From Herpetosiphon geysericola (GTDB taxonomy: Bacteria > Chloroflexota > Chloroflexia > Chloroflexales > Herpetosiphonaceae), in the NCBI RefSeq assembly GCF_001306135.1, contig NZ_LGKP01000013.1, positions 62,001 to 126,000 of the forward strand: a stretch of 64,000 nt of DNA, written 5' to 3'. Below the pieces are notes generated by a model. The model ran no database searches and had not been told where the DNA came from. It worked only from the letters and a program-made list of their open reading frames with translations. Position numbers and translations under genes: made by a program. This document shows positions 20,279-25,498 of this stretch, piece by piece (within the stretch, counting starts at the first letter, position 1; each line of letters begins with the position of its first letter).

Positions 20279-21802
20279 TTAAGCAAACAGCGGTGTATCG
20301 CCTTCGCTGCGTTCGCGGGGCAGCCACCAAATTGGAATCAAGGCCAACAAACAAATGACGGCGGCAGCAAAAAAGGTGCTATGGTAGACCGTCATCTCAT
20401 TTTGGGTGAATGCTGCTAGCGCCTTGCCATTCTCTAAGTCTTCGAGGGTTAATACCAAGCGACTGTTGAGGCTGTTACGATAGGCTAAACTCCACGAAGC
20501 TAAGGCTGAAACGCCCAAGGTAATGCCGACCATACGCAAGGCATTGAGCAAACCAGCTGCCGTGCCCATTGATTCGCGGGCAACATTGCCAATTGCGGCG
20601 GCGCTCAATGCTGGCAACACTAAGCCAAAGCCAGTTCCAGTAAGCAGCAAATAGAGCGTCAACATCCACTGGTTGGTTTCAAGGTTCCAAAAGCCAAGTA
20701 GGCTAAAACCCACCGCAGTGATGATCATGCCAAGGCTGGCAACCAAGCGCGCGCTGATCCGCCGCATTAACATTCCACCCAAAACAGCGCCAATCGGAAT
20801 CATAACCGTCAAGCGCATAAGGGTTAAGCCGCCGCTGAGGGCATCGCCGGAGAGCACGGTGCCAACAAAAAACGGCACATTGACCATGCCAACAATTAAG
20901 GCCATGCCAACCAACAAATTGGTGATATTGGCGGCGCTAAATGCTGGAGTGCGAAAGGCGCTTAGTTCAATTAACGGCGTTTTGGTGCGGCGTTCCCACC
21001 AAATAAAGCCAATAAAACTAACCACCGTTAATGCCAATAGCCCAATTGTGAGCGGCGATGTCCACTCAACTGCATATTGGTCGAGATTGCCGCTTTCGGC
21101 GCTTGGCTCGACGGCAAGACTGCCAAGCGAGCGCGAAAGTGCAACCGTCAATGCAGTTAAACTGATTGCGATCAAGCCGCCGCCGACATAATCGACAGCC
21201 CCGCGATTGCCTTGCCGATTTGGCAACGTCCGAATAATCGCCCATGCCAGCACTGCACCCAACGGTACATTGAGCCAGAAAACCCAGCGCCAACCATCAA
21301 CATCCAAAAGTTGAATTTGCGAGATCAGACCGCCATAGGCTGGGCCAAGCACTCCACCAGCTTCGCCAGCAGCGCCCATAATCCCCAAGGCTGTGGCATG
21401 ATGGATTGGTTTAACTTCGTCCATGGCAATTGCAAGACCAATCGGCAAGACCGCACCGCCGCCGATGGCCTGCACGATGCGCCAAGCGACCAATGACCAA
21501 ACGCTATTGGCCAAGGCACAGCCAATCGAGCCAACCACAAAAACGCCTAAAGCTGCCAAAAATAAGCGGCGATGGCCGTAGGCATCGGCGATGCGGCCAA
21601 GCAAGGGCATGGCGACTGTGTAGCCAAGCAAATAGCCAGTAATAACCCAAATGCCCTGTTCAAGTGCTTGATCGACGCTCAAACCCAAGGTGCTGACCAC
21701 ATTTGGTAAGACAGTGATCACCACCGTTTGGTCGAGTGCAGCCAGAAAAATAATCAGGGCTGTCCAAACAAGGCCCCATGGCCAGCGACGTGTTTCTGCC
21801 AT
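20279..21802 (-). CDS. MFS drug transporter, DHA2 family
   Basis: 507 residues with about 14 membrane segments, as in EmrB/QacA exporters. The first helix carries FLAALDQTVVITVLPNV, containing the D-x-x-I/V-V-x-x-A/V-L-P signature of the family. LLGRIADAYGHRRLF is motif A in the loop between helices 2 and 3, and LGPAYGGLI is the antiporter motif C. Likely a proton-driven exporter of small hydrophobic compounds; no regulator is adjacent. AGGAA precedes the ATG. Its 3' end lies about 100 bases past the double hairpin of the convergent polysaccharide operon. Confidence 0.9.
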   Translation of the reverse strand: MAETRRWPWGLVWTALIIFLAALDQTVVITVLPNVVSTLGLSVDQALEQGIWVITGYLLGYTVAMPLLGRIADAYGHRRLFLAALGVFVVGSIGCALANSVWSLVAWRIVQAIGGGAVLPIGLAIAMDEVKPIHHATALGIMGAAGEAGGVLGPAYGGLISQIQLLDVDGWRWVFWLNVPLGAVLAWAIIRTLPNRQGNRGAVDYVGGGLIAISLTALTVALSRSLGSLAVEPSAESGNLDQYAVEWTSPLTIGLLALTVVSFIGFIWWERRTKTPLIELSAFRTPAFSAANITNLLVGMALIVGMVNVPFFVGTVLSGDALSGGLTLMRLTVMIPIGAVLGGMLMRRISARLVASLGMIITAVGFSLLGFWNLETNQWMLTLYLLLTGTGFGLVLPALSAAAIGNVARESMGTAAGLLNALRMVGITLGVSALASWSLAYRNSLNSRLVLTLEDLENGKALAAFTQNEMTVYHSTFFAAAVICLLALIPIWWLPRERSEGDTPLFA

Positions 21803-22034
21803 ATCGTTGGATTCCTACCGCTAGTTTCTCTTCGTGCTGCATCATAGCATGTAGCTTTGGCCCCCGACAAGGATTGTAACGAGCGTTAACAGATGATCGT
21901 CTTTTTGCGCTTGAAGTAGCAGTTATCAGCAATGATCTGGTACTCAATTGAACGAAAAATAAATTCTATCCAGAGCAGTAATTATCGATTAGTAGATTCC
22001 ATAATCATTTATTAATTATAGATTAGAGATTTAG

Positions 22035-22054
22035 ATAGATAGGAAATTATCTAT
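22035..22054. repeat. Inverted repeat abutting a -35 box
   Basis: ATAGATA (22035-22041) and TATCTAT (22048-22054) with a 6-base spacer; the right arm touches the -35 hexamer of the promoter at 22054. Candidate operator. Confidence 0.45.
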
Positions 22055-22082
22055 TGACTTAAGATTTCAACCCATTTATAAT
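22054..22082 (+). promoter_or_regulatory. Consensus promoter of a short untranslated transcript
   Basis: TTGACT (22054-22059), 17-base spacer, TATAAT (22077-22082). It fires toward a terminator only about 75 bases downstream. Confidence 0.75.
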
Positions 22083-22088
22083 CACATC

Positions 22089-22162
22089 GAAGAAGTGAGA
22101 TGAGTTATCTAAATGAGGAATTTTGTAAACTCATCACAGAACTGTGACGAGTTTTTTATTTT
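22089..22162 (+). ncRNA. Candidate small RNA or attenuated leader with alternative hairpins
   Basis: The segment runs from the predicted start of the promoter above to an intrinsic terminator. The terminator stem is AACTCATCACAG (22128-22139) with CTGTGACGAGTT (22142-22153; one mismatch, so in practice a tighter loop), followed by TTTTTTATTTT. The terminator's 5' arm can instead pair perfectly with GATGAGTT (22099-22106). The two pairings are mutually exclusive, as in attenuators. It is either a stand-alone sRNA of about 74 bases or a leader controlling the secreted-protein gene at 22363. No known riboswitch class was recognised. A 22-codon frame starting at 22113 is present without a clear ribosome site. 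Confidence 0.55.
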
Positions 22163-22362
22163 AAACTATCTGATAGATTGAGGTGGGAGGTGCTTCGAGG
22201 AAAATCATATCTATCCACAATAACCATAGTGATCTAAATCTATTAATTTGAGGAATATTTGATTAATAAGCAAGGGTAAAATTGTTTGTTAATTCAATTA
22301 AATTAATAGAATAGATACGTTGCGGAAGATTACATTTTAATCGAATAGTAGAAGGATTTTTG

Positions 22363-23106
22363 ATGATGAAGGTGCGGTTTTTACTTATACTTATGCTTGT
22401 AAGTATGGCTATGATGCTTAATACCCAACAGGCAAGTGCCAACGATCGTTCGGTCGACGTTGTGCATATTTCGGAAGAAGTGATTCAACTTGAGGGTCAG
22501 CAACCAGTAACCTTGCGCACGCTGGATTATGGTAGCTATAAGGTTAGCTATCTATTGCCACTGGATAAGCAAGCGCTTGATGTGAGCCAATTGGATAGCT
22601 TGAGCCAGCACCAAGAAGCTAAAACCCAAGCCCAAGCTGAGCAACCACAACCAAATCAACTCTCGGTGAATATTCGTCGCACAGCAACCCAATGGTCTCC
22701 AGATGGCAAAGCCAAAAGTTTTACATCGTTGAATGTTACCAAAACGACCTCGACAGCGACCAAACGGCTTAAAGTCACCAATGCCTACTCAAGCCTTTCA
22801 TTCTACAACAATGGCAATGCTGATGTTATTAGTATGGTCAACCAAGTGTGTTTTGAAGGTGTGACGTTCACCGTTTCGTTCCCGCCTGGAATGAGTGCCT
22901 CAAACTCATGTGGGAGCATTGGTCCATTCAACTATAACAACACAGCATTTGGCACAATCTCTGCTGCCGGACACGAGGCCAGTGGTTCGGCGTTTTATCC
23001 CACGCTCGAAGCAGTCAAACAAATTGACTCAAATGCGGCAACTAAGGGCAGTAGCACGTCAGTAGCAGTTAGTTCAGCCCGCATTTCCTATTGGGATAAC
23101 CCCTAA
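22363..23106 (+). CDS. Secreted hypothetical protein
   Basis: 247 residues from ATG 22363; AAGGA lies 7 bases upstream, and a TTG one codon earlier is also possible. The signal peptide is Met-rich (MKVRFLLILMLVSMAMMLN, cleavage near ASA-N). The mature protein has a Gln-rich segment around residues 85-105, then a beta-rich C-terminal half with two cysteines (VCFEGVTF, NSCGSIG), probably disulfide-bonded. I do not recognise the family. It may be controlled by the short transcript upstream and precedes another exported protein on the same strand, but a strong hairpin separates them. Confidence 0.75.
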   Translation: MMKVRFLLILMLVSMAMMLNTQQASANDRSVDVVHISEEVIQLEGQQPVTLRTLDYGSYKVSYLLPLDKQALDVSQLDSLSQHQEAKTQAQAEQPQPNQLSVNIRRTATQWSPDGKAKSFTSLNVTKTTSTATKRLKVTNAYSSLSFYNNGNADVISMVNQVCFEGVTFTVSFPPGMSASNSCGSIGPFNYNNTAFGTISAAGHEASGSAFYPTLEAVKQIDSNAATKGSSTSVAVSSARISYWDNP

Positions 23107-23218
23107 ATCAAGCGTTGTTTAAGCTTCGTTCGCTCAGCATCCTCGCTCATTCTGCTCCTCCACTCACACACGCGACATGCATGGTTTATTTACATAACGC
23201 CTAGCTGGTAAAACGTGT

Positions 23219-23258
23219 GTGCAACGATAGAGCATGCGTGCATAATCTATCGTTGCAC
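23219..23258 (+). repeat. 13-bp hairpin just upstream of the toroid protein gene
   Basis: GTGCAACGATAGA (23219-23231) and its exact complement (23246-23258), 14-base loop containing the palindrome GCATGC. It ends 18 bases before the ATG at 23277, where no Shine-Dalgarno is seen. Terminator of the preceding gene or a regulatory structure. Confidence 0.55.
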
Positions 23259-23276
23259 GATGGTGTTGCTATCCTG

Positions 23277-25055
23277 ATGAAATACTATCGAAGTTTGTGC
23301 TTACTGGTTTTGCTGTGGGGTTGTATGGCTCAAGCCGATCAGCCAGCCCTGATTCAGACCTCGCCTGGCTATCAGCAATGGCATGCTGCGACGAGCGCCT
23401 ACCTTAAGACCGCCTATAAAGAAACCGGAACCTATGGGGTGATTAATCCAGCAATTCAATCGAATGGCTATTGGCTGTATCGCGGCTTACGCATCAATCA
23501 GACGCTTGGTGCGCAGCGCTTGCCCTTTGATCAAAGCGGGCAATGGGCGATTGATCGACTAACATTGATTATGGAGCAGCCAGAAAAAGCCTTTATATCG
23601 CTGCAATCAGAAAGTTTTTACTTGCTTGAGTCATTGGCAATCCTCAACATCGCCTTTCCAGAGCCACAAACATTGGCGAGCCTCATTCAAGCGTTGCAGC
23701 AACCACAAGGCTACTTTTTAGCGACAACCACCAGCCAAGCTGAACAACCTACCAATCAATCAGACTCTTTTGCAAGTACCTATTTTTCGCTGCGGATTCT
23801 TGATCGCTTAGGCTATCCCTATGCCTCCCATGATCAACTCTTCGCTTGGATTAAGACAGAATGGCGAGCGCGGCAACAAGCCAACGATCCAGGCAGTTTG
23901 GCCTCATTACTTGTATTGATTGAGTTGCTCAAGCCAACATCAGCATTGCCCACTGATTATAGCTGGGATTCAATTCTGAGCATGTATCGTGCGAAATCGA
24001 AAATCGCAACCAACTACAGCGATCTTGGGTTTGATCTGAGCGGAATGCTTGGATATGCAGAGTATACAGGGATTGCTGAGGCGTGGCTTGAGCAAGCAAC
24101 GATCGACTTCATCAACGATCCGGTTCGTAATCATGATGGTTTGATCGTCGATTCCAATCAGACCCCTGATCTGTTGTTTTCAGAAATGTTGTATCGGGCA
24201 GCCCAAGCGCATCCAACGCTCGCGGTTAATCAGCAGCGGATGCAAGAGTTTCTGCAACGGCAGCTAATGCCCGATGGCAGTTTCTACCCGGTGGTTTTGT
24301 CTGAGGATGATGTGCTCACGACCGTCTTTGCCTATCAGTATGCCCGCTTATTCCCCGAATTACCATCAGCAGCAACTAGCGATCTGAATAGCGTTATAGC
24401 GCACTTGTTGGAAAAGCCGCAATTGAGGCTTGAAGAACTTTATAGTTTGAGCATGCTTGATGTTGCAAAACTCTCGGCTACGAATCAACAGCTGTTTGTG
24501 CAGCAGCTTGAACAGGCTAAGCCTAGTTCGGAAGCTGACTTGCAGCAATACTTTTTTTATCTTTCGGCGCTTAACAAACTAAAGCTCCCAATTACCGATT
24601 CGCTCAAACAACAGGTGATCAACGTCGTTGAGGGCTTTAAGCTTAATGGCAATTATGGGGTTGAAGGCACGATCACTGCCTATCATACGGCCATGGCAGT
24701 GATTCTGTATAGCTATCTCGGCTACAACGTAGATCAGCAAGCAGCGAATATTAATTGGATTCGTCAGTTTCTTGAAACGCTTGAGGCCCAAAACAGCCAA
24801 ACATTTACCGTGCGTGAAGTCTATTTGCTGTTGCTAGCTTTGAATTTGCAAAATCAGCCGCTACCCCACGTTGAAGCATTAACAACATGGATGGCTGCTT
24901 GTCTTCCTCCAGCAGGCAATAGTTTGTATCAACCATTTGATCCAGCTCAACAGCAGCCCGATTTTTATGTTCTACCCTATACGTTAGCTGGATTGCGCTT
25001 GCTTGGGATCGATATTTATGATCAGCAAGTATTAAGTGGATTGATGCAACCCTAG
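23277..25055 (+). CDS. Exported protein with alpha/alpha-toroid-like repeats
   Basis: 592 residues from ATG 23277 (MKYYRSLCLLVLLWGCMAQA), a signal peptide that could be lipidated at the Cys of LLWGC, although Trp before Gly is unusual for a lipobox. The mature chain has repeated helical units with sequences such as SFASTYFSLRILDRLGYP, PDGSFYPVVLSEDDVLTTVF and GTITAYHTAMAVILYSYLGY. These recall the helix pairs of prenyltransferase/squalene-cyclase toroids, but no DXDD catalytic motif was found. An internal upstream reading from 23217 would cross the hairpin and is rejected. Its stop overlaps the stop of the convergent Rrf2 gene by 4 bases. Function unknown. Confidence 0.75.
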   Translation: MKYYRSLCLLVLLWGCMAQADQPALIQTSPGYQQWHAATSAYLKTAYKETGTYGVINPAIQSNGYWLYRGLRINQTLGAQRLPFDQSGQWAIDRLTLIMEQPEKAFISLQSESFYLLESLAILNIAFPEPQTLASLIQALQQPQGYFLATTTSQAEQPTNQSDSFASTYFSLRILDRLGYPYASHDQLFAWIKTEWRARQQANDPGSLASLLVLIELLKPTSALPTDYSWDSILSMYRAKSKIATNYSDLGFDLSGMLGYAEYTGIAEAWLEQATIDFINDPVRNHDGLIVDSNQTPDLLFSEMLYRAAQAHPTLAVNQQRMQEFLQRQLMPDGSFYPVVLSEDDVLTTVFAYQYARLFPELPSAATSDLNSVIAHLLEKPQLRLEELYSLSMLDVAKLSATNQQLFVQQLEQAKPSSEADLQQYFFYLSALNKLKLPITDSLKQQVINVVEGFKLNGNYGVEGTITAYHTAMAVILYSYLGYNVDQQAANINWIRQFLETLEAQNSQTFTVREVYLLLLALNLQNQPLPHVEALTTWMAACLPPAGNSLYQPFDPAQQQPDFYVLPYTLAGLRLLGIDIYDQQVLSGLMQP

Positions 25056-25498
25056 CTTGGTTGAACTACTGGCGGCTTGGCTTGGGCCTGCATCTCGCGT
25101 ACAACCTCTGCAAGGCTTTTGTTGGCTAGCACTTGTTGCATGGCAGCTTCGGCACTGCTAAAAATGCTGCTGAGCACTGGCTGAATCGTGCGCCCACAGC
25201 GGCAATCTTGGTTGGGCGAGCTGGCATGCAACGGTAAAATACGACAATTTTCGGTCGCATGATAAATATCGTTGAGGGTGATTTCGTGAGCAGCGCGCGC
25301 CAAACGAGTGCCACCATCGGCGCCATATTCGGTATGCACTAAGCCCGCTTTGTTCAATCGGCCCAAAATGCGCCGAATAACCACCGGATTGGTGTTAACG
25401 CTGGCTGCAATTGAGCTTGAGGAAAGAGCTTGATTAGCATTGGTTTCAAGCAGTGCCAAAATATGCACCGCTACAGCGAATCGACTGCTTGCACTCAT
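25052..25498 (-). CDS. Rrf2-family transcriptional regulator
   Basis: 148 residues from ATG 25498 (MSASSRFAVAVHILALLE), with GAGG 9 bases upstream; an ATG five codons earlier is less likely. The winged HTH has the Rrf2 signature SSSIAASVNTNPVVIRRIL, then LNKAGLVHTEYGADGGTRLA. Three cysteines (ENCRILPLH, then QDCRCGR) sit where IscR/NsrR-type members bind an Fe-S cluster, but spacing differs (C-x14-C-x-C), so redox or nitrosative sensing is possible but unproven. A consensus promoter with an inverted repeat in its spacer lies upstream, consistent with autoregulation. Confidence 0.88.
   Translation of the reverse strand: MSASSRFAVAVHILALLETNANQALSSSSIAASVNTNPVVIRRILGRLNKAGLVHTEYGADGGTRLARAAHEITLNDIYHATENCRILPLHASSPNQDCRCGRTIQPVLSSIFSSAEAAMQQVLANKSLAEVVREMQAQAKPPVVQPS

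Follow-up and report, generated by a model that had tools for sequence, protein, structure and literature searches.

The 64,000-nucleotide stretch of Herpetosiphon geysericola DNA that we analysed (the window, whose numbering is used throughout) contains a compact element in which a promoter is followed by an intrinsic terminator, and the 5' arm of this terminator can pair instead with a sequence upstream. The promoter at 22054 and the terminator at 22127-22154 are probably real, and the competing arm at 22099-22106 is probably, but not surely, meaningful. We tentatively read the whole as a leader that acts in cis on the secreted-protein gene downstream and at which transcription would be terminated in part.

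Anatomy of the element

The promoter and the intrinsic terminator with its U-run lie where the initial annotation had placed them (Table 1). Taking the start to be about 7 nt past the -10 box, transcription would begin near 22089, and the terminator begins some 40 bases downstream of this probable start. The hairpin reads AAACTC.A.TCACA-GAAC-TGTGA.C.GAGTTT, with AACTCATC(ACAG) at 22128-22139 as its 5' arm and CTGTGACGAGTT at 22142-22153 as its 3' arm. Its T-run, TTTTTTATTTT, starts at 22152, overlaps the 3' end of the hairpin and continues past it (hairpin and T-run together span 22127-22160). A terminator with a U-run is thus present, but its stem is not perfect: an A.C mismatch sits mid-stem, and a scan restricted to uninterrupted stems did not list the hairpin.

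The upstream arm GATGAGTT (22099-22106) is the exact complement, over 8 nt, of AACTCATC (22128-22135) in the terminator arm, and the two hairpins are therefore mutually exclusive. This alternative pairing had been proposed from the outset, and both the perfect complementarity and the positions given for it are correct. Two hallmarks of attenuators are found here: a promoter and then an intrinsic terminator ahead of a gene on the same strand, as far as sequence can tell, and an antiterminator that shares an arm with the terminator and excludes it (an 8-bp arm, in predicted folds).

An inverted repeat does abut the -35 box, as had been noted, but an equally good one arises in 41% of shuffles. 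We rejected it as a candidate operator, a role that is not supported.

Table 1. Features of the element and its surroundings (positions in the window).
Feature	Position	Strand	Remarks
MFS transporter gene	20279-21802	-	upstream neighbour
Species-specific cargo, 3.2 kb	21895-25056		between MFS and Rrf2-family genes; holds the element and two genes
Inverted repeat ATAGATA-N6-TATCTAT adjoining the -35 box	22035-22054	+	chance-level
Sigma70-type promoter TTGACT-N17-TATAAT	22054-22082	+	11/12 consensus matches
Predicted short RNA, ~65-72 nt	22089-22160	+	inferred from promoter and terminator; end in the T-run
Antiterminator 5' arm GATGAGTT	22099-22106	+	predicted pair probability 0.69-0.90
15-codon ATG ORF MSYLNEEFCKLITEL	22100-22147	+	spans both hairpins; weak ribosome-binding site
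Intrinsic terminator hairpin	22127-22154	+	6+5 pairs, one A.C mismatch, GAAC loop, -10.5 kcal/mol
Shared arm AACTCATC	22128-22135	+	antiterminator 3' arm and part of terminator 5' arm
Gene of orphan protein, 247 aa, signal-peptide-like N-terminus	22363-23106	+	ATG at 22363; SD AAGGA at 6 nt

Genes on either side

Since the upstream MFS gene is encoded on the minus strand, a terminator on the plus strand has no upstream gene to serve. Downstream, 209 nt separate the terminator from the start codon of the secreted-protein gene, in agreement with the roughly 200 bases first reported; that the product is secreted is suggested by its signal-peptide-like N-terminus. The protein has no Pfam or NCBIfam match. 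The interval between terminator and gene has no convincing promoter, and its promoter-like sites (TTGAGG-N16-GAAAAT at 22178 and TTGTTA-N15-TAGAAT at 22286) are weak, which makes the promoter at 22054 the best available for the secreted-protein gene.

The next gene on the plus strand, which starts at 23217 or at about 23280 and ends at 25055, encodes a protein of ~590 aa that weakly matches the prenyltransferase toroid; the only homologues we found for it are remote ones from two further genera of the family, with 24-31% identity. Beyond it lies an Rrf2-family regulator gene on the minus strand.

Comparison with chance levels

The frequency with which such parts arise by chance bears on an unlikely reading in which a genuine promoter drives the secreted-protein gene, while the hairpins are incidental, or are a decaying terminator in AT-rich cargo, and have no regulatory role. 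The GC content of the spacer is 28-34%, against ~50% in the flanking DNA, and this makes promoter-like sites cheap. As background for the promoter, the terminator and the inverted repeat, we used dinucleotide shuffles of the 465-nt spacer (21895-22359), which allow for its AT-richness. A promoter of this grade appears on either strand in 5.9% of them, and three sites of equal quality (this one and two others) occur on the two strands of the 64-kb window. The central mismatch of the terminator and the chance nature of the neighbouring inverted repeat also suit incidental hairpins, as does the choice of the site out of 64 kb, where some luck is expected.

The hairpins themselves argue against this reading. 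A terminator of equal quality was obtained in only 5 of 3000 shuffles, and when the terminator was held fixed and the 58 nt upstream were shuffled, an alternative arm of at least 8 nt arose in 242 of 20000 cases (~1.2%). We also called hairpins by the same rule in a 455-kb sample of the same genome, which gave 57 terminator-like hairpins, some of them surely chance matches within genes. The hairpin at 22127-22154 ranks first among the 57 both for its alternative arm (8 nt, the next best having 6) and for its upstream promoter (11/12, the next best having 9), and it is the only one to combine promoter, arm and terminator. This joint outlier, with parts that are each uncommon singly and that stand in the right order and at the right spacing, points to a cis-acting leader. 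The earlier proposal of an attenuator or a compact sRNA is partly supported: the anatomy favours it, no gene on the same strand lies upstream and the parts co-occur above chance.

Predicted folding and read-through

At the read-out points 22154-22160 the antiterminator takes 0.82-0.90 (about 80-90%) of the predicted ensemble and the terminator 0.10-0.18, shares that do not depend on the exact start site. In longer read-through RNAs the two are predicted to be near balance (0.50-0.57 for the antiterminator vs 0.43-0.48 for the terminator). The antiterminator is fully transcribed once RNA polymerase reaches 22136 and has a head start over the terminator. Because it would form first and dominates the ensemble at the termination point, read-through is predicted; the folding model thus suggests partial termination, with read-through favoured unless the first hairpin is disturbed. 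The stability of the whole 72-nt RNA is ordinary (z = -1.0), which counts against a cis-acting leader.

The terminator is weak, at -10.5 kcal/mol, compared with -18 to -29 kcal/mol for the strongest hairpins of the same genome. Average stability is lower for terminators in 5' leaders than for 3' terminators (Naville and Gautheret 2010, PMC2965389), and by analogy the value here fits the lower stability typical of leader terminators, although it is weaker even than their 5' average of -16.5 kcal/mol. The element further resembles the premature leader terminators of that study in that the terminator comes soon after the promoter and before a gene on the same strand, and in that its 5' arm can pair alternatively.

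From the observed anatomy and chance levels we infer how the element would be transcribed, terminated, read through and regulated. An RNA started near 22089 would pair 22099-22106 with 22128-22135 into the 8-bp antiterminator immediately on transcription, and the weak terminator would have to displace it before RNA polymerase clears the T-run. Two products would result, a short RNA of ~70 nt and an mRNA made by read-through, whose 5' leader would measure ~270 nt. Their yield would be set by whatever tilts the hairpins, be it a ligand, a protein or a ribosome translating the short ORF. The leader RNA has no recognisable ligand pocket, T-box, regulatory codon run or protein site. The search for known Rfam riboswitch, T-box or sRNA families returned none at gathering score (sub-threshold matches are at chance level, the best, to FsrA on the other strand, having an E-value of 0.55), a further point against a cis-acting leader.

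A short reading frame across both hairpins

The initial annotation had found no gene between promoter and terminator. This holds for known genes, but the interval does include the 15-codon ATG ORF at 22100-22147, which might encode a leader peptide and is probably there by chance. It begins within the 5' arm of the antiterminator and ends within the 3' arm of the terminator. Translation-coupled attenuators with leader peptides are known in the trp, pyrBI and erm types, and the overlap of a short ORF with two mutually exclusive hairpins is common to these and to the element. If the ORF were translated, the ribosome would melt the antiterminator, cover the terminator arm or do both, and read-through would be coupled to its movement.

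We consider such coupling most improbable. Only AAG is found at a fitting SD distance, whereas several genes have AAGGA or better, and unlike the trp, pyrBI and erm attenuators the ORF lacks a regulatory codon run; it has no run of a single amino acid and no recognised stalling motif. Chance alone often yields ORFs of this length, and the region is absent from relatives and lends no support from conservation. We give little weight to the ribosome as the tilting factor because the ribosome-binding site is poor and such ORFs are so common.

The element lies in species-specific cargo

Each of the other five genomes of the genus has the MFS gene (91-99% protein identity), while the DNA match to the window stops at ~21894 in four of them and at ~21907 in the fifth (G004). 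The 3.2-kb cargo with the element is absent from all five. Two genomes (G003 and G005) have ~580 nt of different DNA with another small ORF, followed by the Rrf2-family gene; G001 has next to nothing between the MFS and Rrf2-family genes; and in G002 and G004 the site is occupied by other sequence, with no match to the cargo of the window. The cargo at 21895-25056 is species-specific and its site is variable. Across the six genomes of the genus, the interval between the MFS and Rrf2-family genes behaves as a variable insertion site, with differing cargo or nearly none.

With the element as query, DNA searches of 41 relatives and of 301 genomes of the phylum gave only chance-like matches, 15-34 nt long; a covariance model recovered only its own genome among 41 (the model was built from a single sequence and has a short reach), and the exact 41-nt pattern of the element was not found in GTDB contigs. 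The secreted orphan protein has no convincing homologue in the genus, the 301 phylum genomes, GTDB contigs, plasmids or viral contigs; one match with an E-value of 0.002 was rejected, its reading crossing four stop codons. Homologues that could give covariation or synteny support for a cis-acting leader are missing, but since the whole region is absent in relatives, this neither supports nor refutes the element. It is highly improbable, in our estimate, that a species-specific attenuator came with the cargo and that translation of the 15-codon peptide or a ligand switches the secreted orphan protein.

Cis-acting leader or independent small RNA gene

A close rival of the cis-acting leader, possible though not likely, is an independent gene for a trans-acting RNA of ~70 nt, with the secreted-protein gene under a promoter of its own past 22160. 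Conservation and synteny are what distinguishes attenuators from small RNA genes in PMC2965389, and unlike the attenuators described there the element has neither across relatives. Its terminator also differs from those leader terminators in lying 209 nt from the gene. This distance leaves room for a second promoter, and the weak site at 22286, together with the good SD of the secreted-protein gene, is consistent with one. The element has what compact trans-acting sRNA genes with a Rho-independent terminator have: it is an intergenic promoter-to-terminator unit of ~70 nt that ends in a terminal hairpin and a U-tract.

In contrast to such genes, it has no homologue in any genome searched and no evidence of a target: we discarded pairing between the short RNA and the start region of the secreted-protein gene, which 57 of 300 shuffled RNAs match equally well. 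The predicted equilibrium fold favours the antiterminator and so implies poor termination. Hfq (PF17209) went undetected in all six genomes of the genus, while five control genomes were positive, which argues against an ordinary Hfq-dependent sRNA and leaves other kinds unaffected. Among the papers searched, we found nothing relevant on small RNAs in Herpetosiphon.

The mechanism of the cis-acting leader would itself be ordinary and its layout is a common, known type of regulation. The element is possibly a further example of this well-known kind, and among the genomes searched it occurs in one species only. To our knowledge, few RNA regulators have been described in Herpetosiphon, and we believe its phylum to be poorly studied for RNA regulation. 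If it is transcribed, the element would be a candidate RNA regulator of a secreted protein peculiar to this lineage, in a genus where Hfq went undetected.
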